Of a DNA stretch of 41,926 nt, positions 18,371-40,941 are shown in pieces (the first letter of the stretch is position 1; each line of letters begins with the position of its first letter). The DNA lies in the NCBI GenBank assembly GCA_015478895.1, contig JADMKK010000007.1:1-41926 (forward strand), read 5' to 3'. The position numbers and the translations under genes are program-made. The notes under the pieces were generated by a model. That model had not been told where the DNA came from and ran no database searches. It saw only the letters and a list, made by a program, of their open reading frames with translations. This stretch comes from Comamonas sp. GTDB lineage: Bacteria > Pseudomonadota > Gammaproteobacteria > Burkholderiales > Burkholderiaceae_C.

Positions 18371-18380
18371 GAGATTGAGC

Positions 18381-21097: not shown

Positions 21098-21099
21098 GC

Positions 21100-22258: not shown

Positions 22259-23125
22259 TCACTTGTACTTATGCTCTAGGGAATCCCACAGTTCCTTCTG
22301 GACTAAACGCTGACGTTCGCTGAAAGGTGCGACCAGTAGAGGGTCTTCCTGCAGGTTACGGTCCTTTTGCAGCACGCCCAGCGCGCGCTGCATGCCGGCC
22401 ACTGCGCCTTGCAGGGCCGCGTTGGCATACAGCACGATGCTGAAGCCCATGTTGGCCAGCTCATCGGTGTCGGTGATGGGCGTCTTGCCTCCAATTACCA
22501 TGTTCATCAACTGGGGCTGCTTCAGGCGCTGGGGCAGCGCACGGATGTGCTCGACGCTGGTCACCGCTTCAACAAACAGGATGTCTGCACCGGCCTCAGC
22601 ATAAGCCTGTGCACGCTCAACGGCAGCGTCGAAACCGTGCACGGCAGCGGCATCGGTACGGGCCATGATGAGCGTGCCTTCGCTGCGGCGGCCATCCACG
22701 GCGGCCTTGATCTTGCCGATCATCTCGCTGGCTTCAATGACGTCCTTGCCGTTGAAGTGACCACAGCGTTTGGGGCTGATCTGGTCTTCCAGTTGGATAC
22801 AGTCTGCGCCTGCGCGCTCCAATGTGCGTACGGTGTGGTAAGTGTTGACCGCGTTGCCGAAGCCCGTGTCGGCATCGACGATCAGCGGCACATCCACGGC
22901 ATCCCGGATGCGGGCCGTGTGGTCCGCAATATCGGTCAAACCCATGAAGCCCTGATCCGGCATGCCGAACCACATATTAGTGACGCCTGCGCCGGTCACA
23001 TAGATGGCTTCAAACCCCATGTCGGCCACCACGCGCGCCGAGAGTGCATTGAAGGCGCCGGGTACGATCAGGCCCCGGCGTGCATCGACCAGTGCCCGGA
23101 GTTTTTGTTGTGTAGTCATGTTCAT
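22259..23125 (-). CDS. Isocitrate lyase/PEP mutase family lyase (2-methylisocitrate- or 2,3-dimethylmalate-lyase-like)
   Basis: 288-residue TIM-barrel enzyme of the isocitrate lyase/PEP mutase superfamily. Key segments are IYVTGAGVTNMWFG, the metal site VDADTGFGNAVNT, QLEDQISPKRCGHFNGKDV and MARTDA. The K-R-C-G-H loop with its cysteine is the mark of C–C bond lyases (isocitrate, methylisocitrate, dimethylmalate lyase) and not of PEP mutase. The likely reaction is retro-aldol cleavage of a hydroxy-carboxylate to pyruvate, glyoxylate or a similar product plus a second acid. Its start ATG overlaps the stop of the TctC gene upstream (GAATGA); a second ATG lies two codons later at 23119. It is the last gene of the minus-strand flavoprotein–ETF–TctC unit. 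Confidence 0.88.
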   Translation of the reverse strand: MNMTTQQKLRALVDARRGLIVPGAFNALSARVVADMGFEAIYVTGAGVTNMWFGMPDQGFMGLTDIADHTARIRDAVDVPLIVDADTGFGNAVNTYHTVRTLERAGADCIQLEDQISPKRCGHFNGKDVIEASEMIGKIKAAVDGRRSEGTLIMARTDAAAVHGFDAAVERAQAYAEAGADILFVEAVTSVEHIRALPQRLKQPQLMNMVIGGKTPITDTDELANMGFSIVLYANAALQGAVAGMQRALGVLQKDRNLQEDPLLVAPFSERQRLVQKELWDSLEHKYK

Positions 23126-24111
23126 TCAACTTTGATATTGGCGGAGTCGATCACTTCTTTCCATTTGCGCGCTTCGTCCTTGAAGAACTTGTCGAAATCT
23201 TCGGAAGAGGTGGCCACAGGCTCGGCGCCCATCTGCAGCAGCTTCTCGTTGACCTGAGGGTCGCGTACTGCTGCATTCAGGCTCTGGTTGAGTTTGGTCA
23301 CCACACTGGCAGGTACACCGGCTGGCGCAAAAATCCCGAACCAGGCCGAAGCATCAAATCCCTTGATGCCGCTTTCGCTCAGCGTCGGAATATCTGGGGC
23401 CGCTTTGGAGCGGGTCGCTGTGCTCACGGCCAGCGGTTTGAGCTTGCCTGCCTGCACCATGGGCAGCGTGGTCATGATGTTGTCGAACGTCACGGGGACT
23501 TGGTTGCCCAGCACATCGTTCATGGCGGGTGCCGCACCCCTGTAGGGCACATGGGTCATCGACACGCCAGACATCTTTAAGAACATCTCCATGAACAGGT
23601 GCGAACCCGAACCGTTGCCAGCCGTGGCGTAATTGATCTCTCGCGGGCTCTGGCGAGCCTTGCTCATGAGCTCCTTAAGGTCTTTGTAAGGCGTAGCAGG
23701 GTTGGTGACCAGTATGAAGGGCGTCGAGGACACCATCGCCACGGGCTGGAGGTCGTGGATCGCGCTGTAACTCAGCTTCGGGTACAAACTGCCGTTGACC
23801 GCCAGCGCAATGGTGCCGAACAGCAGCGTATATCCATCAGCAGGAGCCTTGGCCACGGCATCTGCACCGATGTTGCTGGCACTGCCGGGCTTGTTGTCGA
23901 TGATCACGGGCTGGCCAATGACCTCCGAAAGTTTGTTGCCCACCAGACGGGCCGCCACATCGGTAGCGCCACCGGCAGGAAAGCCGACGACGAGCCGGAT
24001 GGGCTTTTGGGGATAGGGCGCACTTTGTGCATGCGCACCCATGACGCACAGCGCAGGCAGGCCCAGCACCAGCAGCTTCAGGGTCTGCCTAAAAGTTGGA
24101 TGAAATTTCAA
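23122..24111 (-). CDS. TctC/Bug-family periplasmic solute-binding protein (1 of 4)
   Basis: 329-residue extracytoplasmic receptor of the tripartite tricarboxylate transporter (TTT) family. A signal peptide to about residue 30 (…LLVLGLPALCVMGAHAQ) is followed by the family start YPQKPIRLVVGFPAGGATDV, then NKPGSASNIGADAVAKAPADG and the ligand-loop region SGVSMTHVPYRGAAPAMNDV. These receptors bind carboxylates or related small molecules. The start is TTG at 24111 behind AGGAGA (5 bases spacing); no suitable ATG gives the signal peptide. Its stop overlaps the start of the lyase gene. No TctA or TctB membrane subunit is in the window. Confidence 0.9.
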   Translation of the reverse strand: MKFHPTFRQTLKLLVLGLPALCVMGAHAQSAPYPQKPIRLVVGFPAGGATDVAARLVGNKLSEVIGQPVIIDNKPGSASNIGADAVAKAPADGYTLLFGTIALAVNGSLYPKLSYSAIHDLQPVAMVSSTPFILVTNPATPYKDLKELMSKARQSPREINYATAGNGSGSHLFMEMFLKMSGVSMTHVPYRGAAPAMNDVLGNQVPVTFDNIMTTLPMVQAGKLKPLAVSTATRSKAAPDIPTLSESGIKGFDASAWFGIFAPAGVPASVVTKLNQSLNAAVRDPQVNEKLLQMGAEPVATSSEDFDKFFKDEARKWKEVIDSANIKVE

Positions 24112-24179
24112 TTTTGTCTCCTGTCAGTCAGTGATTGGTCTAATTTTTTCGTTTCACCGACAGAGCTCCATTCTGTGCA

Positions 24180-24198
24180 AAAGCACTATCGTGCTCCT
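24180..24198 (-). terminator. Weak hairpin behind etfA
   Basis: On the minus strand AGCAC-GAT-AGTGCTTTT forms a short stem with a few U residues, 30–45 bases behind the etfA stop. It may reduce read-through into the TctC and lyase genes. Weak evidence. Confidence 0.25.
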
Positions 24199-24225
24199 GC
24201 CCCCGCAGGCTCTGCCACCATGTCT

Positions 24226-25158
24226 TTACAGCACCCCTGCCATCTCCGGAACGGCGCTAAAAAGATCCGCTTCCAGACCGTAGTCAGCCACCGAGAAGAT
24301 CGGCGCTTCTGCGTCCTTGTTGATCGCCACGATCACCTTGGAGTCCTTCATACCGGCCAAGTGCTGGATCGCACCGGAGATGCCCGCAGCGATGTACAGC
24401 TGAGGCGCCACGATCTTGCCGGTCTGGCCCACTTGCAGATCGTTGGGGGCATAGCCCGCATCGACCGCAGCGCGGGACGCGCCAATGGCTGCGCCCAGCT
24501 TGTCGGCCAAAGGCGTGATGACTTCGTTGAACTTCTCGGCAGAGCCCAAAGCGCGGCCACCGGAGACGATGATCTTGGCAGCAGTCAGTTCAGGGCGGTC
24601 GTTCTTGGTCACTTCTCGGCCCACAAAGGCGCTCTTGCCCGAGTCGGCCACAGCAGCCACAGTTTCCACAGCAGCGGAGCCGCCAGTCGCAGCCGCTGCA
24701 TCAAAGCCCGTACCGCGCACGGTGATGACCTTGGTTGCATCGGCAGACTGCACGGTGGCTACGGCGTTGCCGGCATAGATGGGGCGCTCAAAGGTATCGG
24801 CAGACACCACAGCAGTAATGTCGCTGATCTGGCCTACGTCGAGCTTGGCTGCCACGCGAGGGGCCGCGTTCTTGCCCGAAGCGGTGGCAGGGAACAGGAT
24901 GTGGCTGTAGTTGCCAGCACTGGACAGCACTTGGGCGGCCAAGTTTTCAGCCAAGCCGTCTTTCAAAGATGCGCCATCGGCGTGGATCACTTTGGAAACA
25001 CCTGCGATTTGCGCAGCGGCGGCGGCGGCAGCGGCGGCGTTTTCACCAGCGACCAGCACGTGCACATCACCACCAATGGCAGCAGCGGCAGTGACGGTAT
25101 TCAGGGTTGCGCCCTTGATGGAGGCGTTGTCGTGTTCAGCGATGACGAGAGAAGTCAT
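24226..25158 (-). CDS. etfA: Electron transfer flavoprotein alpha subunit (pair 1)
   Basis: 310-residue FAD-binding subunit that accepts electrons from flavoprotein dehydrogenases and passes them to ETF:ubiquinone oxidoreductase. The C-terminal FAD domain is intact: [40 protein letters not shown], and the family signature [20 protein letters not shown] with [17 protein letters not shown] 25158 ([11 protein letters not shown]) behind GGAG is the normal start of betaproteobacterial EtfA. The sequence is of the housekeeping type. It is downstream of etfB; a hairpin repeat sits between them. Co-transcription with the TcuA-like gene upstream is likely. Confidence 0.95.
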
Positions 25159-25222
25159 TTCAACTCCAAAAATTCTTTGAGGTGGCCTGTTTGCACCATG
25201 CACAACGGCATCCTGCAATCAC

Positions 25223-25272
25223 AAAATAGATAGCTACCTGCCCTTGATAGATAAGGGCTACAGGCCAATTTC
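25223..25272 (+). repeat. Complete copy of the interspersed hairpin repeat
   Basis: AAAATAGATAGCTACCTGCC, then CTTGATAGATAAGGGCTACA and GGCCAATTTC. TGCCCTT and AAGGGC(T)A form the stem. It lies in the 134-bp gap between etfB and etfA, inside a transcription unit. The best-preserved copy in the window. Confidence 0.75.
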
Positions 25273-25292
25273 ACTTAAAACTTGGGAAAAGC

Positions 25293-26042
25293 TCAGATTA
25301 CCTTGGCTTCGTTCTTGAGTTTCTCGACCAGCGTTGCCACGTCCGGAACCTTCACGCCAGCGCCGCGCTTGGCAGGCTCTGCCACCTTCAAAGTCTTGAT
25401 GCGGGGAGCAACGTCCACGCCCAGATCTTCAGGCTTGACCACGTCCAGCTGCTTTTTCTTGGCCTTCATGATGTTGGGCAAGGTCACGTAGCGGGGCTCG
25501 TTCAGGCGCAGGTCGGTGGTGATGATGGCGGGAGTGCTCAGGCTCAGGGTTTCCAGTCCACCGTCGACTTCGCGGGTCACGCTCACTTTGTCGCCAGCCA
25601 GCTCAACCTTGGAAGCAAATGTGGCTTGGGGCAGGTCAGCCAGCGCAGCCAGCATCTGGCCAGTTTGGTTGTTGTCGCCGTCAATGGCTTGCTTGCCCAA
25701 GATCACCAGACCGGGCTGCTCTTTGGCAACCAGTGCGTTGAGCAGCTTGGCAATGGCCAGAGGTTGCAGGTCAGCGTCCGTCTCGACCAAGATAGCGCGG
25801 GCAGCACCAATGGCCATGGCTGTGCGCAGAGTTTCCTGGCATTGGGTCACGCCGCAGGACACAGCGATCACTTCAGTCACAACGCCCTTTTCTTTCAAAC
25901 GCACCGCTTCTTCCACGGCGATTTCGTCAAAGGGGTTCATGCTCATCTTGACGTTGGCGATGTCTACGCCTGTACCGTCGGACTTCACACGGACTTTGAC
26001 GTTGTAATCCACCACGCGTTTGACAGGGACGAGAACTTTCAT
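25293..26042 (-). CDS. etfB: Electron transfer flavoprotein beta subunit (pair 1)
   Basis: 249-residue AMP-binding subunit of ETF. It starts [20 protein letters not shown] and contains the ETF-beta signature [20 protein letters not shown] followed by [20 protein letters not shown] and KKKQL. The last part ([10 protein letters not shown]) is the recognition loop that docks onto acyl-CoA-type dehydrogenases, here in its standard form. The protein is of the housekeeping type of Burkholderiales. It lies downstream of the TcuA-like flavoprotein by 105 bases and upstream of etfA. A hairpin (CCCGC-CTT-GCGGG at 26063–26075) is present in its leader. It could have its own promoter in that gap. Confidence 0.95.
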
Positions 26043-26147
26043 AAGAGGACTTTCAGGTCTGCCCCGCCTTGCGGGACGGACATCATGGAGAGAACTGCAG
26101 GCAGGCCCCAAAAGCACTGCCTGCGCAAAATGCAATGGATAGAGCGA

Positions 26148-27644
26148 TCAGACCGCAGCCAAACGGGCGGCTTCCTGCCCAGCAATGCGGCCGAACACCG
26201 AGCCGGAGGTCAGGCCTGCGCCACCCGGATACTTGGTGAAGTACAGGCCGCCCACCATCTCACCGGCGGCATACAAGCCGGGCATGGGGAAGCCTTCCTC
26301 GTCCAGCACTTCACCCTTGGGGGTGATTGCCAGACCGGCATAGGTGCAGGTGATGCCGCAGCTGACCTCATAGGCCACAAATGGCCCCTGCTTCAGTGGC
26401 AGTGCCCAATTACTCTTGTTGATTGCCAAGCCCTTGGTGGAGCGACCATCCAGCACGGCGGGGTTGAATGGCACGCTGCGGTCGACGGCCTGGTTGAAAT
26501 CCTTGAGTGTCTGCAGCAAGCGCGGTGCATCGACTCCATCAAACTGCGCCACCAGCGCTTCCAGTGTGTCCGCCTGATAGCGGGTGGCATGGCGCACACG
26601 ATATTCGTCTGGCAGCAGCTTGGCGCCCACAGCATCAAAGATCTGCCAGCCGCGTGCATTGGGTTGCTGCAACATGGCGGCGCCCATGCGCGAGTAGGTG
26701 TAGTTGCGGAAGTTTTCGCCTTCGTCCACAAACCGCTCACCCAAGGTGTTGACCACCACGCCCAGGTTGAAATAGTTCTTCTGCTGGTTGAGCAGATTGG
26801 GTTGGCCAAACTCGGGGGCATTTGCGTCATAGAACACGCTGTGGCAGGCCGTCCAGTGACCGGCCGCACGCGCACCCTTGTCCAGAGCCGCCTGAATGGC
26901 CAGCCCCGTGTTGTAGCGAGAGCCACGCACCTTGGCCAGATCCCAGTTCTTGCCCAGATAGCTGGCACGCCACTGTGCATTGGCGTGGTAGCCACCAGCG
27001 GCCAAAATCACCGCACCGGCACGCAACTGCAGCATCTGCCCTTGGTGGGAAGCCACCACACCGCAGACCTTGCCGTTCTCCACGATCAGCTCCGTCATCT
27101 TGTGGTCGTAGGCGATGCGAATGCCCATCTTCTCGGCTTTAGTAAACAGTGACTGCACCAGGCCCGCCCCACCGCCTGAGACTTCCACCGTCAGGCCGCC
27201 CCAGAACTTGTTCTTGCCATCGACCACAAAGGATTGCCGGCCATGGATGGGAATGAAGCGCACGCCATGGCTGCGCATCCATTGCAGGGTTTCGAAGCTG
27301 CGGTTGACCAGCACTTCCACCAGATCACCGTCGGCACGCATGCCGCTCATTTCAATCAGCTCATCGAAATACTGGGAAGCGGGGTAGGCGCCGAAATCGG
27401 ATTTCGCCAGTTCGTCTTCCGACAGATCCGGCACCAGCTTCTGAATATCTTCCACGCCGTCATAGGCGACGCGGAACGCACCGCCGGTATAGGCCGAATT
27501 GCCGCCACGGGCACTTTCCGGTGCACGTTCGAGCACCAGCACGCTGGCACCCTGCTCAGCAGCGGCAATAGCAGAACACAGGGCGGCATTACCAGCGCCG
27601 ACCACCAGAACATCCACCGATGTGGCTAAGTTGGAATCACTCAC
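26148..27644 (-). CDS. TcuA-like FAD-dependent dehydrogenase (flavoprotein 1 of 3)
   Basis: 498-residue flavoprotein of the fumarate reductase/succinate dehydrogenase fold, most like tricarballylate dehydrogenase TcuA. The dinucleotide-binding motif VDVLVVGAGNAALCSAIAAA is at residues 10–30 and is followed by LVLERAPESARGGNSAYTGG. VVNTLGERFVDEGENFRNYT lies in the cap domain. The C-terminal FAD-closing segment is EEGFPMPGLYAAGEMVGGLY and FTKYPGGAGLTSGSVFGRIA. The active-site Arg of true fumarate reductases (NR-x-GG) is not present in that last segment. The start is GTG 27644 behind TGGAGG. It probably desaturates a tri- or dicarboxylate. The gene is followed by etfB and etfA rather than by a TcuB partner, so ETF is the likely electron acceptor. 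Confidence 0.87.
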   Translation of the reverse strand: MSDSNLATSVDVLVVGAGNAALCSAIAAAEQGASVLVLERAPESARGGNSAYTGGAFRVAYDGVEDIQKLVPDLSEDELAKSDFGAYPASQYFDELIEMSGMRADGDLVEVLVNRSFETLQWMRSHGVRFIPIHGRQSFVVDGKNKFWGGLTVEVSGGGAGLVQSLFTKAEKMGIRIAYDHKMTELIVENGKVCGVVASHQGQMLQLRAGAVILAAGGYHANAQWRASYLGKNWDLAKVRGSRYNTGLAIQAALDKGARAAGHWTACHSVFYDANAPEFGQPNLLNQQKNYFNLGVVVNTLGERFVDEGENFRNYTYSRMGAAMLQQPNARGWQIFDAVGAKLLPDEYRVRHATRYQADTLEALVAQFDGVDAPRLLQTLKDFNQAVDRSVPFNPAVLDGRSTKGLAINKSNWALPLKQGPFVAYEVSCGITCTYAGLAITPKGEVLDEEGFPMPGLYAAGEMVGGLYFTKYPGGAGLTSGSVFGRIAGQEAARLAAV

Positions 27645-27942: not shown

Positions 27943-28734
27943 ATGAACGTACTGATCATTCTTTCGGGCATTGCAGACGCCAAGCTGCAGCTTCCTCGGC
28001 CAGTCAGCGCCGAAACCCTGCAGGCCTTGCGTGCCAGCCATGCTTTGCTGAGCCCCTTTGACGAAGCCGCGCTGGAGCTGGGGCTGAAGCTGCGTGATGC
28101 CGACCCGACCGTGCAGCTCACAGCGCTGGTGGCTGCCAGCACCGCCCAAGACAAGCTGCTGCAGCATGTGGCCAGCTTCCGTCTAGATGCCGTGCTGGCT
28201 TACCCCGTGCAACAAATCCCTGCGTGGAACAGCCACACATTGGCCAGCGGTTTGAGCAGTTTTGTGCAGGCCCAAACTGGCAGCCCCCCGGACCTGGTGC
28301 TGATGGGCCGCGAGTTCGGCGATGAGGACGATGGCGGCGTGCCTACAGCCACTGCTCACGCGCTGGGCTGGCCACTGGTGTCGCAGGCCATGCATGTGCA
28401 GCATGCCGCCCCTGGCCTGCTGCACATCCTGCGCCAGTTCGGCACGGTGCAGGAAGTGCTGTCACAGGCCACACCTGCCGTGGCAGCCGTCACCAACCAT
28501 GCTCGTAACAAGCTGCGCCATCCGCTGCTCAAGAACGTGATGGCCGCCAAGAAGATGCAGTTCACGTTGCAACCGCTGCCGCAAGACACCGCTGCGCATA
28601 CGCTGACTTTGGCCAGCGTGGATCAGGCCAGCGCCCCTGAACGCACCGAGCAGTGCCAGATGATCGCCGGGGATGTGAGCACTCAGGCGCGCGCACTGGC
28701 GCAGCTGCTTTTGACTTTCGGAGAGACACCATGA
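27943..28734 (+). CDS. Electron transfer flavoprotein beta subunit-like (pair 2)
   Basis: 263-residue divergent ETF-beta homologue. It begins MNVLIILSGIADAKLQLPRP and keeps the adenine-nucleotide alpha-hydrolase-like fold (LSPFDEAALELGLKLRDADP, LVLMGREFGDEDDGGVPTAT). The DGGLE and DLRLNEPRY signature blocks of pair 1 are missing. The docking loop reads KNVMAAKKMQF instead of [10 protein letters not shown]. So it should have a different partner from housekeeping ETF. No clear ribosome binding site precedes ATG 27943; an in-frame ATG at 27901 is an alternative. The stop overlaps the start of the alpha subunit (ATGA). It is divergent from the TcuA-like gene. Confidence 0.82.
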   Translation: MNVLIILSGIADAKLQLPRPVSAETLQALRASHALLSPFDEAALELGLKLRDADPTVQLTALVAASTAQDKLLQHVASFRLDAVLAYPVQQIPAWNSHTLASGLSSFVQAQTGSPPDLVLMGREFGDEDDGGVPTATAHALGWPLVSQAMHVQHAAPGLLHILRQFGTVQEVLSQATPAVAAVTNHARNKLRHPLLKNVMAAKKMQFTLQPLPQDTAAHTLTLASVDQASAPERTEQCQMIAGDVSTQARALAQLLLTFGETP

Positions 28735-29705
28735 CTCAGCCCCGCCAGATCGTTCTAGTTCTACCCCCAGCTGACAGCTGCGACGCTCCCGATGCCCTGC
28801 TGCAGGCCGCAGCGTCACTGGCCCGCGGCAGCACACTGACGGTGCTGGCGCTGGCCGGCGCAGACAGCCCTTCCATTGCTCCACGCGATCTGCCGGAGCC
28901 TGCCCACTGGTGGCAGTGCCAGCATCCGGCGCTGCAACGCTTGGATGCAGCGAGTCTGCTGCCCTGCATGCAGGAAGCCTTGCAGCACGCAGTCGCAGCA
29001 GCGCAGTCGCTGATCCTAATGCCGCCCGGCCCGCTGTCCGAAGAGTGTGCAGCGCTGCTGGCAGCGCGCCTGCATGGCGACCATCTGGGCCGCTGCGTGC
29101 AATTGCAGCTCACGGCAGAAGGCGTCCACGCAGAGCGCCATGCATTTGGTGGACGTGTGGCCCTGCAATTGGACAGCCGCAGCAATGTCTGTACCGCCAC
29201 CTGGCGTCCTGCACCTGCAGCCACAAAGGATGCGGGTATCGCTCCTGAAATCCATGAACTCCAGCTGCAGGCCGTGCTGCCCGCAGCGGTGCAGACTTCT
29301 GTGGTGGAGTCAACCGACCGGCTGCCCCCGCTGGAGAATGCACGGCTGGTGGTCAGCGGTGGCCGTGGCATGCAGGGTGAGACAGGTTTTGCCCTGCTGG
29401 CCGACATTGCCCAGCAGCTTGGAGCCTCGCTGGGCGGCAGTCTGCCTACTGTGGATGCAGGCTGGGTGCCTGTGGCGCGGCAGATCGGCCAGTCCGGTAA
29501 GTTCGTCAACCCCAAGATTTATTTCACGGTCGGTATCTCCGGCACGCCCCAGCACCTTGCGGGCGTATCGCAGGACAGCCGCATCATTGCCGTGAACAAG
29601 GACCCGGATGCGCCCATCTTCCAACGCGCGCAATACGGGGTGGTGGCGGAATGGCAGAACCTGCTGCCAGCGCTGCTGCAGGAGTTGCAGGCAGCCCCCG
29701 TTTGA
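28731..29705 (+). CDS. Electron transfer flavoprotein alpha subunit-like (pair 2)
   Basis: 324-residue ETF-alpha homologue. The N-terminal domain is poorly conserved (RQIVLVLPPADSCDAPDALL). The C-terminal FAD domain is well conserved: LVVSGGRGMQGETGFALLAD, TVDAGWVPVARQIGQSGKFV, and the signature IYFTVGISGTPQHLAGVSQD with IIAVNKDPDAPIFQRAQYG. It should bind FAD and form a heterodimer with the beta-like protein, with which it overlaps by ATGA. GGAGAG precedes the ATG. It differs strongly from the etfA of pair 1, so this is a separately acquired ETF and not a recent duplicate. Confidence 0.88.
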   Translation: MTQPRQIVLVLPPADSCDAPDALLQAAASLARGSTLTVLALAGADSPSIAPRDLPEPAHWWQCQHPALQRLDAASLLPCMQEALQHAVAAAQSLILMPPGPLSEECAALLAARLHGDHLGRCVQLQLTAEGVHAERHAFGGRVALQLDSRSNVCTATWRPAPAATKDAGIAPEIHELQLQAVLPAAVQTSVVESTDRLPPLENARLVVSGGRGMQGETGFALLADIAQQLGASLGGSLPTVDAGWVPVARQIGQSGKFVNPKIYFTVGISGTPQHLAGVSQDSRIIAVNKDPDAPIFQRAQYGVVAEWQNLLPALLQELQAAPV

Positions 29706-29718
29706 AGCACTGAAAGCA

Positions 29719-29792: not shown

Positions 29793-29800
29793 CTGCGCAA

Positions 29801-30781: not shown

Positions 30782-30805
30782 GCTTGGTCTCCTTATTAAA
30801 GTCAC

Positions 30806-32215: not shown

Positions 32216-32290
32216 TGTGGAATTCACCAGAACATAAAAGACTGGCTGCCCTCAGGCAGCCAAGTGCTTTGGTGCATTGAAAAGGCGGCC

Positions 32291-33568: not shown

Positions 33569-35014
33569 ATGCAAAACAATTTCGATGTGGTGGTAGCAGG
33601 ATGTGGCGTGGCCGGTCTGTCGGCAGCGGTTTCGGCGGCAGAGAACGGAGCCAAGGTGGTCGTGCTGGAACGCGCACCTGAGTCCGACCGTGGCGGTCAG
33701 AGCCGCTACACCGAGGCGTATCTGCGCATGAAGAGTCTGACCGAGGTCAGCGACGACTTTGAAGTGCACCTGGCCGAAAACGGTGCCGGCAGCATCGATC
33801 CCGATTTGGTAGAGCAAGCAGCGACAGACCCTCAAGGCACATCGCTGACACGTAGCCTGAGCCTGGCAGACCCCAACCTGATCGAACGCTTCGCCAATGC
33901 AGCCCCTGGCACTATCGCTTGGCTGCAAGGTCTGGGCGCACGCTTTGACTTTCTGCCCACGCAGTTTCTGACCGCATCGCAGCCACGTATGCTGCCTGTT
34001 GGCGGTGGTCAGGCGCTGGTCGATGTACTGGCCGCTCGTGCCGAAGCGCTGGGCGTGACGTTCATGTACGAAACTGCAGCCCAGTCGCTGCTGCAGGACG
34101 ACGAAGGCCAAGTCATTGGCCTGCGCGCCAATGTGCGCGGCAAGCAGATCAAGCTGCACGGCAAGGTGGTGCTGGCCTGCGGTGGTTTTGAAGGTAATAC
34201 CGAAATGATGACGCGCTATGTCGGTCCACGTTCGGTCTACCTGCGCCCTGTGTGCAAAGGCGCTTACTACAACCGTGGTGAAGGCATTCGCATGGGCATC
34301 GACATTGGTGCTGCAGCTTCCGGTGAATTTGGCAGCTACCACGCAGAGCCCGTGGACCCTCGCTCAGGTATCGCCGAGCCATCGATCTTCATTTTCCCCT
34401 ATGGCATTCTGGTCAACAAGGAAGGCGAGCGCTTCACCGATGAAGCCCCTACCACCGTGGATGCCTGCTACGAACCCGTGACGCGCCGTATCTTTGAACA
34501 ACGTGACGGTATGGCCTGGACCATTCTGGATGCCCGCCATACCCGCATCCCTAACTATCGCTTGGGCATTCGCACGGACCAGCCACCTGTCTCGGCCAAC
34601 ACCATCGGTGAACTGGCTGCCAAGATCGGTGTACCCACAGAACGTCTGGAAAAGACGGTGCAGGCCTACAACGCAGCTTGCAGCGGCGCAGACTGGACAC
34701 CGCTGAAGGTGGATGGTGTAGCGACCGAGGGCCTGTGCCCACCCAAGTCGAATTGGGCCTGTCCACTGACTGAAGGTCCTTTCCACGCCTACCCCATCAT
34801 TTCGGCCAATGTATTCACCTTCGGCGGTCTGAAGATCAACCTCGAAGCCAATGTCCTCAACAGCGATGGCGATGCCATCCCCGGCCTGTTCGCAGCCGGG
34901 GAAACCGTGGGCATCTACTACGGCAACTACACCGGCGCAACCTCCGTGCTCAAGGGCTTGGTGTTTGGCCGCATTGCCGGCACCACGGCTGCCCGTGAGA
35001 CGGCCGCTGCTTGA
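33569..35014 (+). CDS. FAD-dependent oxidoreductase, TcuA/fumarate-reductase-like (flavoprotein 2 of 3)
   Basis: 481-residue flavoprotein. MQNNFDVVVAGCGVAGLSAA holds the FAD-binding GxGxxG motif, followed by VVVLERAPESDRGGQSRYTE, very like the start of flavoprotein 1. The C-terminal closing segment is GDAIPGLFAAGETVGIYYGN and YTGATSVLKGLVFGRIAGTT. As in flavoprotein 1 the fumarate-reductase Arg of NR-x-GG is missing. ATG 33569 is set by AGGAGC; an in-frame start at 33452 is rejected. It opens the plus-strand unit with an SDR, an isochorismatase-like, a racemase-like and a third flavoprotein gene. Likely a dehydrogenase of an organic acid using ETF as acceptor. Confidence 0.86.
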   Translation: MQNNFDVVVAGCGVAGLSAAVSAAENGAKVVVLERAPESDRGGQSRYTEAYLRMKSLTEVSDDFEVHLAENGAGSIDPDLVEQAATDPQGTSLTRSLSLADPNLIERFANAAPGTIAWLQGLGARFDFLPTQFLTASQPRMLPVGGGQALVDVLAARAEALGVTFMYETAAQSLLQDDEGQVIGLRANVRGKQIKLHGKVVLACGGFEGNTEMMTRYVGPRSVYLRPVCKGAYYNRGEGIRMGIDIGAAASGEFGSYHAEPVDPRSGIAEPSIFIFPYGILVNKEGERFTDEAPTTVDACYEPVTRRIFEQRDGMAWTILDARHTRIPNYRLGIRTDQPPVSANTIGELAAKIGVPTERLEKTVQAYNAACSGADWTPLKVDGVATEGLCPPKSNWACPLTEGPFHAYPIISANVFTFGGLKINLEANVLNSDGDAIPGLFAAGETVGIYYGNYTGATSVLKGLVFGRIAGTTAARETAAA

Positions 35015-35096
35015 ACGGCTGTGGAATACATGGCGCGGCCTGTTGTCCAGACAGCGTCATGTTGCTGACTCCACACCTTCAGATCAAGGAAATGAC

Positions 35097-35858
35097 ATGA
35101 CAACAGATTTCAAAGGCCGTATTGCGCTGGTGACAGGCGCCGCAGGTGCCATCGGCAGCGCGGTGGTCACCGAACTGCGCCGCCTGGATGCCCAGGTTGT
35201 GGCAGCCGACGGTGCCAGCGGTCGCCCCTGGACCCAGGCCGATCTGCGCACCGAACATCTGGTGCGCCTCAATGTGACCGACCGTTCTTCGATTCGTGGC
35301 TTGGTCTCGCGTACCGAGGCGCAGCTAGGCCCGATCGACCTGCTGATCAACGTCGCCGGCGTGGTGTCCTTTGGCTCGGCAGAGGAACTCTCGGAACTGG
35401 AATGGGACCGGGTTATTGACATCAACCTCAAAGGCAGCTTCATGACCTGCCAGGCCGTCATTCCCGGTATGAAGCGCGCAGGCTTTGGACGGATCATCAA
35501 TCTGGGTTCGGTGGTTGGCAAAAACGCTGGCAACCCACGTCCCTGGATTGATCCCACCGAACAGCAGCGTGCCAGCAATGTGGCCTACGGCGTCTCCAAG
35601 GCGGGCATCCATGCGATGACAGGTTTCCTGGCCAAGGAACTCGCAGCACACGGCGTCACGGTCAATGCGGTGGCTCCCGGCCCGATTGCCACAGCCATGA
35701 CCACCAACTTCCCGGCCACGCTCAAAGCCTCTCTGCCTGTGGGCCGCATGGGCAACACCAGCGACGTCGTCGCCGCCATTCTGTTCCTGGCAGGCCGCGA
35801 CAACAGCTTCATCACCGGTGAAGTGCTCGACATCAACGGCGGCATGTGGTGTGACTAA
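35097..35858 (+). CDS. Short-chain dehydrogenase/reductase
   Basis: 253-residue SDR with the cofactor motif TGAAGAIG (residues 13–20), NVAG (85–88), catalytic Ser138 in NLGSVVG and Tyr164/Lys168 in YGVSK, and a C-terminal ITGEVLDINGGMW. Ser-to-Tyr spacing is about 13 residues longer than usual because of the insertion NAGNPRPWIDPTEQQ, which may shape the substrate pocket. The D-A-D region after the second strand (VVAADGASG) does not clearly decide between NAD and NADP. AAGGAA precedes the ATG at 35097. It lies 82 bases behind flavoprotein 2 and 75 bases before the isochorismatase-like gene. It probably oxidises a hydroxy-acid or reduces a keto-acid. Confidence 0.9.
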   Translation: MTTDFKGRIALVTGAAGAIGSAVVTELRRLDAQVVAADGASGRPWTQADLRTEHLVRLNVTDRSSIRGLVSRTEAQLGPIDLLINVAGVVSFGSAEELSELEWDRVIDINLKGSFMTCQAVIPGMKRAGFGRIINLGSVVGKNAGNPRPWIDPTEQQRASNVAYGVSKAGIHAMTGFLAKELAAHGVTVNAVAPGPIATAMTTNFPATLKASLPVGRMGNTSDVVAAILFLAGRDNSFITGEVLDINGGMWCD

Positions 35859-35933
35859 TCGACCAATCACAGCCCCCTGCGCCAGCTTCTTTCTTCTCTC
35901 AACGGCTTCAGACCAACACAAGGAATTTTCATC

Positions 35934-36518
35934 ATGAAGGCAATCTATCTCGTTCTCGACATGCAAAACGATCTGGTCCACGTAGACGGCCCCAATGGCA
36001 AGTCCCCCATGGGTGAACAGGTGCGTGCACGCCAGGTGATCGCCAATACTGCCACTGCACTGGCCAAGGCCCGTGCCGCAGGCGTGGCTGTGGGCTGGGT
36101 GCGCGTGGGCTTCTCCCCTGAATACCAGGAATGTCCCAAGGATTCCCCTGTCTTCGGTGGTGCGCCCAAGGGTGGCATGTTCAAGCTGGGTGGCTTCGGC
36201 ACCGAAATCCACCCTGATCTGGAGCAGCGCCCCGGTGACGTGCAGGTGGTCAAACACCGCGTCAGCCCCTTCTACTCCACCACGCTGGAAGCTCAGCTGC
36301 GCGCTGGCGGCTACACCCGCATCTACTGCTCGGGCGTATCTACACAGGCCGTAGTGCAGGCCACGGTGCGCGACGCCCACGACCGCGACTACGAAGTGAT
36401 CGTGATCGAAGATGCCTGCTGCGCACACAGCGAAGAAGAGCACCGCAATTCCATGGGCAGCATCACACGCTTTTGCAAGCAGGTGACCACTGCTGCCAAT
36501 GTGGACTTCACCGCCTGA
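35934..36518 (+). CDS. Isochorismatase-fold hydrolase lacking the catalytic cysteine
   Basis: 194-residue protein of the isochorismatase-like/cysteine hydrolase superfamily. The acidic residue Asp9 in YLVLDMQNDL and Lys107 in VVKHRVSPFY are present. At the nucleophile elbow the family has GV-A/S-T-x-x-C-V; here residues 134–141 read GVSTQAVV, so Val140 stands where Cys is expected. C132 is two residues before the loop and not in that place. So it is not a standard amidase/nicotinamidase; an isochorismatase-type reaction without the cysteine is possible. AAGGAA precedes the ATG. It lies between SDR and racemase-like genes in the flavoprotein 2 unit. Confidence 0.82.
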   Translation: MKAIYLVLDMQNDLVHVDGPNGKSPMGEQVRARQVIANTATALAKARAAGVAVGWVRVGFSPEYQECPKDSPVFGGAPKGGMFKLGGFGTEIHPDLEQRPGDVQVVKHRVSPFYSTTLEAQLRAGGYTRIYCSGVSTQAVVQATVRDAHDRDYEVIVIEDACCAHSEEEHRNSMGSITRFCKQVTTAANVDFTA

Positions 36519-36542
36519 TAGGCCAGCGCAGGGAGCAAGACA

Positions 36543-37355
36543 ATGGGAATTCGTATCTGGCACCAGAGCTTTACGGTACTGCAGGATCTGGGTGCTTATG
36601 ACGCTGCCCTCAAAGCGCATTTCAAGCGCGTGGCACGTCCTGACACCGAGATCGTCATGCACGGCATGCAACCGGGCACCTACCGCAGCAACTATCCGGG
36701 CGAGGACATCCGCCACGCCGGCTTTCAGCACCTGCACTCGCTGCAGTTCCTAGCGGCAGGTGTACAGGCTGAGGAAGACGGTTTCGACGCTTACGCCATC
36801 AGCACGCTGCCAGATCCGGGTTTGCGCGAAATCCGCTCGCTGCTGAAGATCCCGACTGTGGGTTACGGGGAGTCGGCCATGCTGACCTCCTGCCTGCTGG
36901 GCGCTAAATTCTCCATCCTGCTATTCATCAACGAGATGACCGATCTGCTGGCCGACAACGCCCGCAAGTATGGTCTGCGTGAACGCATGGTAGGTGTGTC
37001 GGATGTGGGCTTTCGCTTCACCGATGTGCTGGCTGGTTTCTCCGACCCTGCACCGCTGATCGAGCGTTTTCGCACTGCTGCGCGGGCCCAGATCGCAGCA
37101 GGTGCCGAAGTCATCATCCCTGGTGAAGCGCCGCTGTGCGTGCTGCTGGCATCGCAGGGGGTGTCGAACGTGGATGGTGTGCCTGTGCTGGACTCGCTGT
37201 CCTGCTGGATCAAGCAGGCCGAACTGCTGGTCGATCTGAAACGCAACAGCGGTATCGAACGCTGCCAGCGTGGCTACTACAACGCACCGCCCGAGCGTGA
37301 GCGCCTGCGCGAAGTGCTGGACTTCTATCAACTTAAACGATTTACTGCCCAATGA
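36543..37355 (+). CDS. Asp/Glu/hydantoin racemase-fold protein without the catalytic cysteines
   Basis: 270-residue protein with the two-domain racemase fold. FDAYAISTLPDPGLREI (81–97) aligns with the first catalytic loop, where the family has A-C-F-G-D-P-G-L; Thr88 replaces Cys. GAEVIIPGEAPL (187–198) aligns with the second loop G-C-A/T; Glu195 replaces Cys. It cannot work by the two-cysteine racemase mechanism and may act as an isomerase, lyase or hydratase, or as a binding protein. AGGGAGC precedes the ATG. It is 24 bases behind the isochorismatase-like gene, and its stop overlaps the ATG of flavoprotein 3. In nicotinate degradation (NicE/NicF) a racemase-fold isomerase and an isochorismatase-fold amidase work in sequence, which is a suggestive parallel, but those enzymes keep cysteines. 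Confidence 0.8.
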   Translation: MGIRIWHQSFTVLQDLGAYDAALKAHFKRVARPDTEIVMHGMQPGTYRSNYPGEDIRHAGFQHLHSLQFLAAGVQAEEDGFDAYAISTLPDPGLREIRSLLKIPTVGYGESAMLTSCLLGAKFSILLFINEMTDLLADNARKYGLRERMVGVSDVGFRFTDVLAGFSDPAPLIERFRTAARAQIAAGAEVIIPGEAPLCVLLASQGVSNVDGVPVLDSLSCWIKQAELLVDLKRNSGIERCQRGYYNAPPERERLREVLDFYQLKRFTAQ

Positions 37356-38737
37356 GTGCAACCCCTCCATCCCTGAGCACCGAGTTGCTGGTCATCGGCG
37401 GTGGTCTGGCGGGCTTTGCGGCCGCGCTGGAAGCCGCACAGGCTGGCACCCAGGTCATCTTGCTGGAAAAAATGCCTGAAACCGGTGGGTCCTCCGCCAT
37501 GAGCGGTGGCTGTCTGGCGTTTGCTGGTACGGATCTGCAGGCCGCCGAAGGCATTGAAGATAGTGCGGAACTGCTCCAGCGCGATCTGCTCGAAGTTGGT
37601 CAGTACGAGAACGATCCCGAACTGGTCCAAGCCTATGTAGACCACCAGTTGCAGACCTACGAATGGCTCGAGCAGCAGGGCGTGGCGTTCAGTCCGGTGA
37701 TCGAAGCGTCCTCCGGTCAATCGGTGCCCCGCGTCCACACCGTGGACCCCGCCGATACCGTGCGCTTGCTGCAGGCCCGCTGCTTGGAAACCGGGAAGGT
37801 GCAGGTTTTCACCAGCACCCGTGCACTGCGTCTGGTGCGCAGCAGCGAGGCCGCCCGCGTGCAGGGCGTGGTAGCCAACGGGCCTCATGGTAAATTCACC
37901 ATCCAGGCCAGCGTGGGCGTATTGCTGGCCAGTGGCGGTTTCGGCAAGAACGCTGAGTTGGTGCACCAGTTTGTGCCCCACTACGATAACGCGGTGTTCG
38001 TCTGCGGAGAAGGCAATGTCGGTGACGGCCTGGCCATGGCACGCAAGCTCGGTGCCGATGTGCGTGACATGATTTACATCAAGGGCACCTACGGCAAACA
38101 CCCGGTAGACACCACCAACCACCACAGTTGCCTGGCCGTCTACAAAGGTGCGATTGCGGTGAACGAAGACGGCAAGCGTTTCGTGGACGAATCCATCTCG
38201 TACAAGCTGCTGGGAGATGCCGTGATGGCACAGCCCTATCACACGTCGTTCCAGATCTTCGACCAGCCGATCTTTGAGTCGGGCGATGACCGCGTACGCA
38301 TTCTGGATTTCCAGCGCCGCATGGAAGAAGGGTTGATGATGCAGGCCGACACACTGCAAGGCTTGGCACAGCAGATCGAAGTACCTTACGAGGCACTCAA
38401 GGCCACGGTAGATAACTACAACCGTTACTGTGATGAAGGACATGACCCCGAGTTCGGTCGCAAGAAGCTGGTGCACAACCATGGTGAGCTGTGTCGTATC
38501 GAAACCGGTCCGTTCTATGCTTACCCTTCCACAGCATCGGTATTCGGTACGTACTGTGGCCTGCGCGTGAATGCATCGATGCAGGTGGTGGACGTGTTCG
38601 GGGAGGTGATCCCCGGTCTGTATGCAGCCGGTGAAGTTATGGGCGGCTTCCACGGAGGTGCCTACATGACCGGTTCCGCACTGGGCAAGGCCTGTGTGTT
38701 TGGCCGCGTGGCGGCACGCTCGGCGACTGCGACGTAG
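37352..38737 (+). CDS. FAD-dependent oxidoreductase, fumarate-reductase-like (flavoprotein 3 of 3)
   Basis: 461-residue flavoprotein. The FAD motif TELLVIGGGLAGFAAALEAA is at the N-terminus, followed by ILLEKMPETGGSSAMSGGCL, characteristic of the fumarate reductase/urocanate reductase/3-ketosteroid dehydrogenase branch. The C-terminal closing segment is VIPGLYAAGEVMGGFHGGAY then MTGSALGKACVFGRVA. The substrate Arg of NR-x-GG is replaced by AYMTGS. It lacks a haem or FMN-binding domain and a signal peptide, so it is soluble and cytoplasmic. It is more distant from flavoproteins 1 and 2 than they are from each other. It overlaps the racemase-like gene by ATGA and ends the unit before a strong terminator. 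Confidence 0.86.
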   Translation: MSATPPSLSTELLVIGGGLAGFAAALEAAQAGTQVILLEKMPETGGSSAMSGGCLAFAGTDLQAAEGIEDSAELLQRDLLEVGQYENDPELVQAYVDHQLQTYEWLEQQGVAFSPVIEASSGQSVPRVHTVDPADTVRLLQARCLETGKVQVFTSTRALRLVRSSEAARVQGVVANGPHGKFTIQASVGVLLASGGFGKNAELVHQFVPHYDNAVFVCGEGNVGDGLAMARKLGADVRDMIYIKGTYGKHPVDTTNHHSCLAVYKGAIAVNEDGKRFVDESISYKLLGDAVMAQPYHTSFQIFDQPIFESGDDRVRILDFQRRMEEGLMMQADTLQGLAQQIEVPYEALKATVDNYNRYCDEGHDPEFGRKKLVHNHGELCRIETGPFYAYPSTASVFGTYCGLRVNASMQVVDVFGEVIPGLYAAGEVMGGFHGGAYMTGSALGKACVFGRVAARSATAT

Positions 38738-38760
38738 AGCGTTTGAGGCTTCCCCCCAAA

Positions 38761-38812
38761 AAAGCCCCGAAGTCTGGCATGCATTGCCAGACTTCGGGGC
38801 TTTGTGTTCCTG
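38761..38812. terminator. Strong bidirectional terminator
   Basis: AAAGCCCCGAAGTCTGGCA (38761–38779) pairs perfectly with 38785–38803 around a 5-base loop. On the minus strand a run of six T follows, on the plus strand TTTGTGTT. It sits between the convergent ends of flavoprotein 3 and the LysR gene. Confidence 0.9.
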
Positions 38813-38826
38813 TCAGCAGCCGTGGC

Positions 38827-39765
38827 TCAACGTTTGCCCAGTGGCTTCACTTCGACCGCGCGGAAAGCACTGGGCTTGCGTTCGGAGTCGATCACTTCGC
38901 TCAGGAAGTCGGTAAAGGCGCGTACCTTGGCCGAGTCATTGCGCGCCCGCGTTGTGACAGCATAGAAAGTACGGCCGCGCGTAGTCCATTCGGTATAGAC
39001 CGGCACCAGCGTACCCTGTTCAATCGCACGCAGCACGAAGATATCCAGTACGTGGATCACGCCTGCCCCATTCAGGGCCGCGTTCACCACGGCATCGTTG
39101 CTGTTGAAGTGCAGCGTTCCACAGGGCTGTACTGCCACGTTTTCGTCTCCCCGCGTCAAGGCCCAGGGGTTGGAAGTGCGACGCTCTTCAGCCAGCACGC
39201 CCAAGCAATCGCGCGGATTGAGGTCTGCAGGGTGTTCAGGCAGGGTCGCAGCCACTTCGGGCGTGGCGCAGACCATGTAGCGGGCCTCGTAGATGGGCCT
39301 GGCAATTAGGCCCGCATCCTCCACACGGTCCATGCGAATAGCTACATCAATCGCTTTTTCAATCAGGTTATGCGGCTGGTTGGTCAAGGTGACCATGGTC
39401 GAGATACCGGGATAGCGCTCTGCAAAACCGCTGAGTGCCGGGCACAGAAATGCATGTCCGAAGGAGATTGGCGTCTCCACCACCAGCGGGCCGCGCAGCT
39501 CGCCCAACTGGCTGCGCACCTCGAGCTCTGCATCATCGACCGCACGCAGAATTTCACGCGCACTTTCCAGATATTTTTCGCCCTGCTCCGTCAGGTGCAG
39601 CCGGCGTGTATCGCGGTGAATCAGCGTCACGCCCAGGCTCTGTTCTAGGTTTCGTACGCACGCTGTCACGGTGGCATTGGCCAGATCGAGTGACTCGGCC
39701 GCACGGGAAAAGCTGGAGCATTCCGCCACGCGAACAAACACTGTCATCGCCCACAGTTTGTCCAT
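38827..39765 (-). CDS. LysR-family transcriptional regulator
   Basis: 312-residue regulator with an N-terminal winged HTH (MDKLWAMTVFVRVAECSSFS, then RAAESLDLANATVTACVRNL) and a LysR effector-binding domain. Start 39765 gives the usual MDKLWAM N-terminus. ATG 39795, ten codons upstream, is possible and would place the start 22 bases behind the motif at 39817–39836. It is the only regulator within the 19-kb carboxylate locus, so it probably controls the nearby TctC gene, the flavoprotein units, or both. The gene is on the same strand as TctC 4, which lies 175 bases upstream, and it ends at a bidirectional terminator. Confidence 0.9.
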   Translation of the reverse strand: MDKLWAMTVFVRVAECSSFSRAAESLDLANATVTACVRNLEQSLGVTLIHRDTRRLHLTEQGEKYLESAREILRAVDDAELEVRSQLGELRGPLVVETPISFGHAFLCPALSGFAERYPGISTMVTLTNQPHNLIEKAIDVAIRMDRVEDAGLIARPIYEARYMVCATPEVAATLPEHPADLNPRDCLGVLAEERRTSNPWALTRGDENVAVQPCGTLHFNSNDAVVNAALNGAGVIHVLDIFVLRAIEQGTLVPVYTEWTTRGRTFYAVTTRARNDSAKVRAFTDFLSEVIDSERKPSAFRAVEVKPLGKR

Positions 39766-39816
39766 CTTGTTTCTTTTGCTAGAAATTGTCTCCATGGCGT
39801 CTCTTTGGCTCTTCGT

Positions 39817-39836
39817 GTAGGAAGAGTAAATTCTAG
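39817..39836 (-). promoter_or_regulatory. Motif shared by the LysR and TctC 4 upstream regions (copy 1)
   Basis: Plus strand TAGGAAGAGTAAATTCTAG, 22 bases upstream of ATG 39795. A close relative, TAGGAAGTTGAATCTAG, lies 24 bases upstream of the TctC 4 start. On the minus strand both begin CTAGAAT/CTAGATT, which could be −10 boxes or a common operator. Confidence 0.4.
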
Positions 39837-39880
39837 TGCCCAGCCTTCCTGCTAGCCTACGCACTGCACCAGGAGACACC

Positions 39881-39898
39881 ACCCCGCTGCAGCGGGGT
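39881..39898. terminator. Palindrome between TctC 4 and LysR
   Basis: ACCCCGCTGCAGCGGGGT is an 18-base perfect palindrome, about 40 bases behind the TctC 4 stop. There is no T run, so termination would be partial; it may lower LysR expression from the TctC promoter. Confidence 0.45.
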
Positions 39899-39939
39899 AG
39901 CTAGACGCTGCTCGTTGCAGGCGGCAGCCTTTGGACCAC

Positions 39940-40941
39940 TCAGTCCATCGTTGCGCCGGATTCCTTGGCGACACGCGCCCAGCGCATGTTTTCCTTGGCC
40001 ACGAAGTCTGCGAACTCCTTGGAGGTGGCACTGCTTTGCGGTACGACGGCCACGCGATTCAGCTGCTCCTTGACCTTGGGGTCCTGTATCAGATGGTTCA
40101 TGGCAGCATGGATCTTGGCTACCACGGCATCCGGTGTACCGCCAGGTGCAAAGACTCCAAACCAGTTGACCGACGAGAAAGAAGGTAGGCCCTGCTCACG
40201 CGCAGTGGGCACGTCAGGCAGGAAGTCGATGCGCTGGTCGCTGGTCACCGCCATGGCCTTGAGCTTGCCATCGCGCACGAAGTTGATCACCGCTGGCAGG
40301 TCCATGGTGACGGCATTCACATGGCCAGCCAAGGTGTCTGATACCGCAGGACCAGCCCCTTTGTAAGGCACGTGCATGATCTTGTTGGTGCCTGAAGCCT
40401 GCTTGAGAAGCTCGATAGTCAGGTGCGGCAGACCGCCATTGCCCGACGAGGAAATCGTAATTTCACGCGTCTTGGCCAGTTCCATGAATTCGCGAAAGTC
40501 CTTCACATTCAGGCTGGGCCCCGTGACGATGGCTTCCGGTGTCCATCCCAGCGTCCCGATAGACACCAGGTCCTTGGTGACATCGAACGGTTTCTTGGAC
40601 ATCAGGTGCGGCGCGATCACCAGCGGGCTGGCGCTGGATAGCAGCAGGTTGTAGCCATCGGGTTCAGACTTGGAGATAAAGGTCGAAGCCATCACGCCGT
40701 TGGCGCCCGGCTTGTTTTCCACGATCACCTGCTGGCCCAGAATCTGGCTCAGAGGGACGGCCACAATGCGAGCCACGATGTCGTTGGAGCCTCCGGGTGG
40801 ATAGCCGACGATCAGGCGGATCGGTTTGCTAGGAAATACCTCCTGCGCAACGACCGATGCTGCAGGAAGTATCGACATTGTTGCAATGGATGCGGCACCC
40901 GCGATGAGCGCGTGGCGTCTTGAAATTCCAGCTATTTTCAT
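39940..40941 (-). CDS. TctC/Bug-family periplasmic solute-binding protein (4 of 4)
   Basis: 333-residue TTT-type receptor. The N-terminus MKIAGISRRHALIAGAASIA has a twin-arginine pattern (SRRHAL) before the hydrophobic stretch, so export may be by Tat, unlike the other three copies. The mature part shows FPSKPIRLIVGYPPGGSNDI, ENKPGANGVMASTFISKSEP and KIMHVPYKGAGPAVSDTLAG. AGGAGAT at 40946–40952 supports the start. It is followed on the same strand by the LysR gene. Upstream lies an AT-rich region, so this is the outer edge of the carboxylate locus. The ligand is unknown. Confidence 0.92.
   Translation of the reverse strand: MKIAGISRRHALIAGAASIATMSILPAASVVAQEVFPSKPIRLIVGYPPGGSNDIVARIVAVPLSQILGQQVIVENKPGANGVMASTFISKSEPDGYNLLLSSASPLVIAPHLMSKKPFDVTKDLVSIGTLGWTPEAIVTGPSLNVKDFREFMELAKTREITISSSGNGGLPHLTIELLKQASGTNKIMHVPYKGAGPAVSDTLAGHVNAVTMDLPAVINFVRDGKLKAMAVTSDQRIDFLPDVPTAREQGLPSFSSVNWFGVFAPGGTPDAVVAKIHAAMNHLIQDPKVKEQLNRVAVVPQSSATSKEFADFVAKENMRWARVAKESGATMD

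Follow-up and report, generated by a model that had tools for sequence, protein, structure and literature searches.

A rare, conserved Burkholderiales gene cluster that may oxidize a substituted polycarboxylate through a divergent electron-transfer flavoprotein

Tricarballylate is oxidized as a free acid, to cis-aconitate, by TcuA, a flavin adenine dinucleotide (FAD) dehydrogenase whose partner is the iron-sulfur protein TcuB and whose operon is controlled by the LysR-type regulator TcuR. In reductases of the same wider superfamily, a catalytic arginine acts as proton donor (R402 in flavocytochrome c3, R411 in UrdA). A third protein family of small-acid metabolism, MmgE/PrpD, has characterized substrates with a 1,4-dicarboxylate backbone in common, as stated in an excerpt of PMC12290011. 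Here we analyze a Comamonas sp. gene cluster in which relatives of these enzymes stand together. It lies on contig JADMKK010000007.1 (C7) of assembly GCA_015478895.1, a 3.2-Mb genome in 61 contigs; the whole contig, 41,926 nucleotides, is hereafter the window. Genes carry numbers from g1 (leftmost) to g17 (rightmost; Table 1) and are assigned to families by Pfam and NCBIfam profile matches. The core comprises three flavoproteins (FAD1, FAD2 and FAD3), a divergent electron-transfer flavoprotein (ETF) pair (EtfB2A2), an MmgE/PrpD protein, a short-chain dehydrogenase (SDR), an isochorismatase-fold protein (Iso), a racemase-fold protein (Rac1), TctC-type receptors and one LysR regulator. On balance we favor the reading that horizontal transfer has spread this cluster and that it serves to break down a single small di- or tricarboxylate bearing a substituent, in free-acid form and with a link to EtfB2A2.

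Sequence comparison indicates that the neighborhood is a conserved catabolic cluster, and a rare one. Using tblastn, we compared the 17 window proteins with the loci retrieved with g5 and then with wider stretches. Thirteen of the 17 genes (g2, g5-g9 and g11-g17) recur jointly, in changed order, in other Burkholderiales: Achromobacter veterisilvae, A. aloeverae, Cupriavidus lacunae, two Bordetella, two Variovorax plasmids, and metagenome-assembled genomes (MAGs) of Burkholderiaceae and Comamonadaceae. These nine genomes represent about eight lineages, the two Variovorax strains carrying near-identical copies. Five genes (g5, g12, g14, g15 and g16) occur in all nine, six (g2, g6, g7, g11, g13 and g17) in eight, and g8 in seven. 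The PrpD gene of C. lacunae is a contig-end fragment with 23% coverage, and the Comamonadaceae MAG is covered by two contigs of just 3.8 and 11.5 kb, where gene absences are uninformative. Because so many genes recur together in reshuffled order, the grouping is not a product of chance. An earlier note on this DNA, made from the sequence, had proposed co-occurrence in Burkholderiales as the check on its pathway; it holds for these 13 genes but not for g1, g3 and g4, nor for g10 outside the genus, none of which has an orthologue in the stretches retrieved from the nine other clusters. As to rarity, g5 finds matches at E ≤ 1e-80 in two of 150 genomes of the family, its own included, and Iso at E ≤ 1e-30 in nine out of the 369 sampled for the class, where the copies other than its own are 37-44% identical.

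Several observations bear on how the cluster arrived. By g5, the closest locus is that of the uncultured Comamonadaceae MAG (86% identity). For 12 of the 13 core genes, identity to the window ranks in the same order, with the Comamonadaceae MAG (where known) ahead of Variovorax and Variovorax ahead of the rest, a pattern consistent with the whole set having been inherited together; the exception is g17, where A. veterisilvae (54%) exceeds Variovorax (52%). The genes flanking five scanned clusters differ from cluster to cluster. The left flank of the window cluster (18302-21580) has matches in genomes of the same genus, the core DNA (g1 and g3/g4 aside) appears among the same-genus matches listed only in genome G925, which carries g17-g16-g15-g14-g13-g12-g11 and a g10 fragment, and an integrase-core open reading frame (ORF) stands at the contig edge. 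From these observations we infer that the cluster was acquired horizontally.

The two Variovorax plasmids come from linuron-contaminated soil. In PBL-E5 the cluster lies within about 14 kb; in SRS16 it spans about 27 kb, with a large adhesin gene inserted. The SRS16 insert (L029, 8805-21146) holds a filamentous-haemagglutinin-type adhesin and a ShlB-type transporter, between LysR and FAD3. Beside the PBL-E5 cluster (L028, 30375-31883), a 502-amino-acid argininosuccinate-lyase-like protein adjoins a second racemase-fold gene; the lyases of ethylenediaminedisuccinate and iminodisuccinate (IDS) belong to the argininosuccinate-lyase-like family.

Gene order varies between clusters, and this favors a different view: that two or three independent acid-utilization operons (g5 with a TctC gene, g9 with a TctC gene, and g11-g15) happen to be neighbors because Burkholderiales gather operons of this kind in islands. 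Sub-modules do stand alone, namely FAD2 with Rac1 and FAD2-SDR-Iso. TcuA-like genes (43-52% identity) also keep other company in five other plasmids, with LeuCD and PrpF, PrpD, aldolases, ABC transporters or ETF as partners; those at 50-52% adjoin LeuCD-like proteins and PrpF in Hydrogenophaga, PrpD in Paracoccus, aldolases in Shinella and a divergent EtfAB pair in Bradyrhizobium. The modules nevertheless rejoin in about eight lineages, in varied orders and with the same LysR and receptors, and chance neighbors are unlikely to have been kept in this way. We regard separate operons as a minority reading, appreciably less probable than one pathway.

The distribution of Rac1 and Iso bears on the same question. 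Of 399 genomes of the order, 10 carry Rac1 (E ≤ 1e-40); Iso (E ≤ 1e-50) is present in 11, again of 399 and apparently in the same sample. Eight genomes hold both (hypergeometric p = 5e-13, or 1e-11 without the window's own genome), p values that overstate the association owing to kinship among the genomes. Eight of the nine other Rac1 genomes have a FAD2 gene adjacent to Rac1 or no more than about 8 kb away; for the ninth (G385), the retrieved 39 kb yielded no such gene. One genome (G466) has FAD2, SDR and Iso adjacent. Between the 120 best relatives of Rac1 and the 120 best of Iso, 26 longest-contig sizes are identical, against a mean of 1.7 and a maximum of 4 when sizes were shifted by 1-20 bases, and this excess suggests that the two are linked in metagenomes. 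In G203 (L053, 1481-7183), Rac1 and FAD2 are separated by genes for an MtrB/PioB-type porin, a multihaem cytochrome and a cytochrome-b561-type protein.

A single, fixed pathway also has evidence against it. A FAD3 relative (48-49%) was found in only two of the nine other Rac1 genomes, and in all seven other genomes with both Rac1 and Iso the two lie on different contigs. Outside the full clusters, Iso relatives (48-74% identity; partners scanned in eight of ten other genomes, all but G407 and G436) neighbor genes for coenzyme A (CoA)-transferase III (two cases), FAS1_DH-type (three), MmgE/PrpD (one) and dienelactone-hydrolase-type (one) proteins. With neighbors so mixed and contigs separate, the co-occurrence of Rac1 and Iso may blend different functions, and a CoA step is possible. 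EtfB2A2 is the least conserved pair of the core (35-49%); Iso, TctC17 and Rac2 are not at their usual place in the Burkholderiaceae MAG; and we found no operator common to the promoters.

FAD1 (g5) is probably not a tricarballylate enzyme, although it belongs to the TcuA family. It passes the NCBIfam TcuA model NF006130 (575 bits; cut-off 369) but fails TIGR02485 (284 bits; cut-off 372.6), while the genome's own TcuA, on contig C18, passes both (765 and 719 bits). The genome's only match to TcuB (TIGR02484) adjoins that TcuA, and the window holds none. Identity between g5 and the TcuB-linked TcuA is 34%, and a 22-row tree places g5 with six cluster orthologues on a separate 100/100 branch, true TcuA being a long branch of unsure placement. 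These results count against g5 as a tricarballylate dehydrogenase, and against a locus for tricarballylate or aconitate with g5 as an additional TcuA, a PrpD for aconitates and otherwise auxiliary genes. The PrpD fold does include cis-aconitate decarboxylase, but tricarballylate would presumably need just one desaturase and an aconitase; such a locus strikes us as highly improbable. The C18 TcuA-TcuB pair (L101, 7417-10119) has a TctC receptor gene nearby.

All three flavoproteins appear to be dehydrogenases rather than reductases of the fumarate or urocanate type. Aligned to urocanate reductase over nearly its full length, FAD3 (g15) has Tyr at the position of the catalytic Arg. We read FAD1-3 as dehydrogenases because the same column holds Tyr in all three and in true TcuA.

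Their electrons probably pass to EtfB2A2, the cluster's own carrier. g6 and g7 have ETF domains in both subunits and an FAD-binding C-terminal domain in alpha, and g6 is only 26% identical to the other EtfB of the window, g4. The pair accompanies the flavoproteins in eight of nine clusters, and the genome holds a match to the ETF:quinone oxidoreductase family, so ETF-linked flavin dehydrogenation, already proposed in the earlier note, remains plausible. Independent support for ETF as a partner of the g5 branch comes from a Bradyrhizobium guangxiense plasmid with an EtfAB pair beside a TcuA-like gene. On this plasmid (L096, 6288-9488), EtfAB is divergent to the TcuA-like gene, and a CoA ester lyase and a CoA-transferase lie nearby.

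Judged by alignment, three core enzymes lack some of the catalytic residues that their names promise, and the names isochorismatase, racemase and PrpD-like are misleading here. Compared with IDS epimerase, g9 and its orthologues have Phe for His150 and Arg for Lys198 in eight of eight aligned rows, and g9 has Gly for Tyr145. The putative MmgE/PrpD catalytic set, as listed in the excerpt of PMC12290011, is H85, D88, H99, H150, K198 and K266. Equivalents of four of these six residues (His85, Asp88, His99 and Lys266) are kept in g9; with the others replaced, a PrpD-type active site finds no support.

The isochorismatase-fold and racemase-fold proteins are changed at the cysteines themselves. We found 2579 relatives of g13 (E ≤ 1e-20) and 1262 of g14 (E ≤ 1e-30) and checked residues in the best 120 of each. 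At the position of the nucleophile, Cys118 in the isochorismatase-fold protein YcaC (PMC4519933, in excerpt) and here referred to Cys162 of TrtA (6xix), the g13 family has Val in 120 of 121 rows and Ala in one, which leaves a cysteine-hydrolase-type active site unsupported. Lys107 is kept in all 121 rows and Asp9 in at least 98%. Where the racemase KpAllR has catalytic Cys79 and Cys184 (PMC12661438, in excerpt), the g14 family has Thr (100 rows) or Ser (21) at the first position and Glu in 121 of 121 rows at the second. The folds are as expected: predictions from alignments of 24 rows each give an isochorismatase/amidase fold for g13 and a two-domain racemase fold for g14. These substitutions speak against a pyridine- or pyrimidine-type route ending in a maleamate amidase of isochorismatase fold and a maleate isomerase of Asp/Glu racemase fold, since the amidase cysteine and both isomerase cysteines are replaced. 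No ring hydroxylase or dioxygenase was found by Pfam among the core genes, and we give such a route only the slimmest of chances.

Nor does Pfam find a CoA enzyme in the core of the window cluster, and a route free of both oxygenase and CoA appears to be the best reading. In such a pathway, TctC receptors would capture the acid, and FAD1, FAD2 and FAD3 would oxidize it at successive C-C (or C-heteroatom) positions. Electrons would flow from the flavoproteins to EtfB2A2, then to ETF:quinone oxidoreductase and the quinone pool, EtfB2A2 taking the role that TcuB has for tricarballylate. The SDR (g12) may oxidize or reduce a hydroxyl group, and g9, with its altered PrpD pocket, may carry out enolate chemistry on the acid. 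The FAD2 product would pass to Rac1, and FAD2 or SDR products to the Cys-less g13; g13 and g14 would cleave a bond or isomerize without an active-site cysteine at the usual places. The sequence itself shows which genes are present, that they recur and are inherited together, that a divergent ETF pair is one of them, and which residues have changed. The electron flow, the order of steps, the reactions and the free-acid route we infer, and we found nothing in the sequence that singles out one substrate.

A more specific chemistry would follow if the bond cleaved were an ether. In oxygen-free ether-carboxylate cleavage, a flavoprotein would desaturate beside the ether oxygen, and g13 would hydrolyze the enol ether to a hydroxy acid (for the SDR) and a keto acid. 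True isochorismatases hydrolyze vinyl ethers, with a catalytic Asp named for VibB (PMC12210187, in excerpt); g13, without Cys, still keeps Asp9 and Lys107; and FAD2-SDR-Iso are adjacent in one genome. Even so, we think this account very unlikely. A broader form, which we also hold unlikely, would make ether or comparable C-heteroatom cleavage in a polycarboxylate possible without oxygen or CoA: an ETF-linked flavodehydrogenase would make an enol ether or enamine, a Cys-less hydrolase of the g13 type would open it, and the Glu-bearing racemase-fold protein would be a new lyase or isomerase acting on the flavoprotein product.

Three genes outside the conserved core, g1 and the pair g3/g4, lose support for the place in the pathway that the earlier note gave them. 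A PrpB-like C-C cleavage step had been assigned to g1, which scores 280 bits against the PrpB model TIGR02317 (equivalog cut-off 354); it has no orthologue in the stretches retrieved from the nine other clusters, and its DNA has homologues elsewhere in at least 26 of 30 other same-genus genomes. The first ETF pair, g3/g4, is 86% identical in DNA to an ETF on contig C9, next to an acyl-CoA dehydrogenase and close to a CoA-transferase III. Given this close kinship in protein (Table 1) and its absence from other clusters, the pair is no longer a likely pathway component; ETF pairs of this type have homologues elsewhere across the genus. In the Comamonadaceae MAG, the g2 orthologue directly follows the TcuA-like gene; in the window lineage, then, this gap probably received g3/g4 by insertion or copying. 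They may be used in the pathway here nonetheless. Three copies of this ETF type, as single genes or pairs with 94-96% protein identity, are present in the genome, the one on contig C1 being cut by the contig end. C1 also carries three MmgE/PrpD genes side by side (L102, 14767-19104), two on one strand and one opposite; about 11 kb away are the truncated EtfB and genes for an acyl-CoA dehydrogenase and a 3-hydroxyacyl-CoA dehydrogenase. The remaining non-core gene, g10, has a counterpart at this position in just one further genome of the genus (L122; 67% identity over a fragment at a contig end).

The set would be under common control of one LysR regulator, g16, the only one in the cluster. TTTTCG-N7-CGAAAA, the candidate operator between g10 and g11, has its sole exact match in the window there, and the same dyad stands in the same interval of L122. 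In two Achromobacter clusters and one Bordetella cluster (L017, L020/L088, L089), a dyad CTAAT-N5-ATTAG in the interval between LysR and FAD2 is a candidate LysR box.

As the earlier note had listed, all the named families are present at 22259-40941. Its overlaps are there too, four bases each at g1/g2, g6/g7 and g14/g15; the longest intergenic gaps, 298 bases at g5/g6 and 297 at g10/g11, are both divergent promoters.

Table 1. Features of the window, with profile matches and presence in the nine other clusters
Feature	Position	Strand	Assignment	Remarks
g1	22259..23125	-	PEP-mutase/ICL (phosphoenolpyruvate mutase/isocitrate lyase)-superfamily lyase, PF13714 161 bits	KRCGH in translation
g2	23122..24111	-	TctC-type solute receptor, PF03401	Core; orthologues 56-64% in 8/9
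g3	24226..25158	-	EtfA	Non-core; 95% protein identity to C9 copy
g4	25293..26042	-	EtfB	Non-core; protein identity 96% to C9 copy, 94% to C1 copy
g5 (FAD1)	26148..27644	-	TcuA-like FAD dehydrogenase, FAD_binding_2	Core; 9/9
g6 (EtfB2)	27943..28734	+	Divergent EtfB, PF01012 78 bits	Core; orthologues 35-44% in 8/9
g7 (EtfA2)	28731..29705	+	Divergent EtfA, PF01012 and PF00766 104 bits	Core; orthologues 40-49% in 8/9
g8	29801..30781	-	TctC receptor, PF03401	Core; orthologues 50-67% in 7/9
g9	30806..32227	-	MmgE/PrpD family, PF03972 146 bits and PF19305, both above cut-off	Core; 8/9, one a fragment
g10	32291..33271	-	TctC receptor	Non-core; 0/9
Dyad TTTTCG-N7-CGAAAA	33418..33436	.	Candidate operator	Perfect; between divergent g10 and g11
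g11 (FAD2)	33569..35014	+	FAD dehydrogenase, FAD_binding_2, PF00890 164 bits	Core; 64-72% in 8/9; heads g11-g15
g12	35094..35858	+	SDR, PF13561 159 bits	Core; 57-83% in 9/9
g13 (Iso)	35934..36518	+	Isochorismatase fold without nucleophilic Cys, PF00857 140 bits	Core; 8/9
g14 (Rac1)	36543..37355	+	Asp/Glu-racemase fold without either catalytic Cys	Core; 9/9
g15 (FAD3)	37352..38737	+	FAD dehydrogenase, FAD_binding_2, TIGR01813 304 bits (cut-off 285)	Core; 67-84% in 9/9
g16	38827..39795	-	LysR regulator, PF03466/PF00126	Core; 54-85% in 9/9
g17	39940..40941	-	TctC receptor, PF03401	Core; 52-72% in 8/9
Transposase/integrase-core ORF end	41760..41924	-	PF13683 rve_3 29.8 bits	At contig edge beyond g17

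The cluster is apparently undescribed so far. Among the papers listed by searches of the open-access literature (with few subscription papers and no bioRxiv) we found none that describes this gene set, in agreement with the earlier note. Of the pathway drawn there, a conserved, undescribed catabolic cluster stands, whereas the isocitrate-lyase-type step, the first ETF pair and the chemistry of three enzymes do not. If the ETF link is true, TcuA-family dehydrogenases have an electron route besides TcuB. Three names common in databases (cysteine hydrolase or nicotinamidase-related amidase, allantoin or Asp/Glu racemase, and MmgE/PrpD) also call for caution, since these conserved subfamilies lack residues that normally serve in catalysis. 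The cluster further offers a compact gene set on which the substrate can be sought.

Among described systems, TcuABC shares an FAD dehydrogenase of the same family, the oxidation of a polycarboxylate as free acid and a LysR regulator. The window cluster differs in having a divergent ETF pair in place of TcuB, and in adding two more flavoproteins, PrpD, SDR, Iso and Rac enzymes and TctC receptors. The methylsuccinate/itaconate cluster, as far as the excerpt of PMC12290011 describes it, likewise combines an MmgE/PrpD isomerase with a dehydrogenase that its authors assume to be ETF-dependent, for a substituted succinate. That pathway runs through CoA esters and an acyl-CoA dehydrogenase, unlike the core here, where Pfam detects no CoA enzyme, and g9 deviates at two positions of the PrpD catalytic set proposed there. 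IDS epimerase (PDB 2HP0/2HP3) is, with Bacillus IRG1, among the nearest solved relatives of g9, which has Phe, Arg and Gly for its His150, Lys198 and Tyr145. g14 differs from the allantoin/hydantoin racemases (KpAllR, PDB 3QVJ) in the replacement of both cysteines, the second by an invariant Glu. Finally, g15 aligns over almost its whole length with the urocanate and fumarate reductases of the flavocytochrome c superfamily, and departs from them in the Tyr that stands where these have the catalytic Arg.

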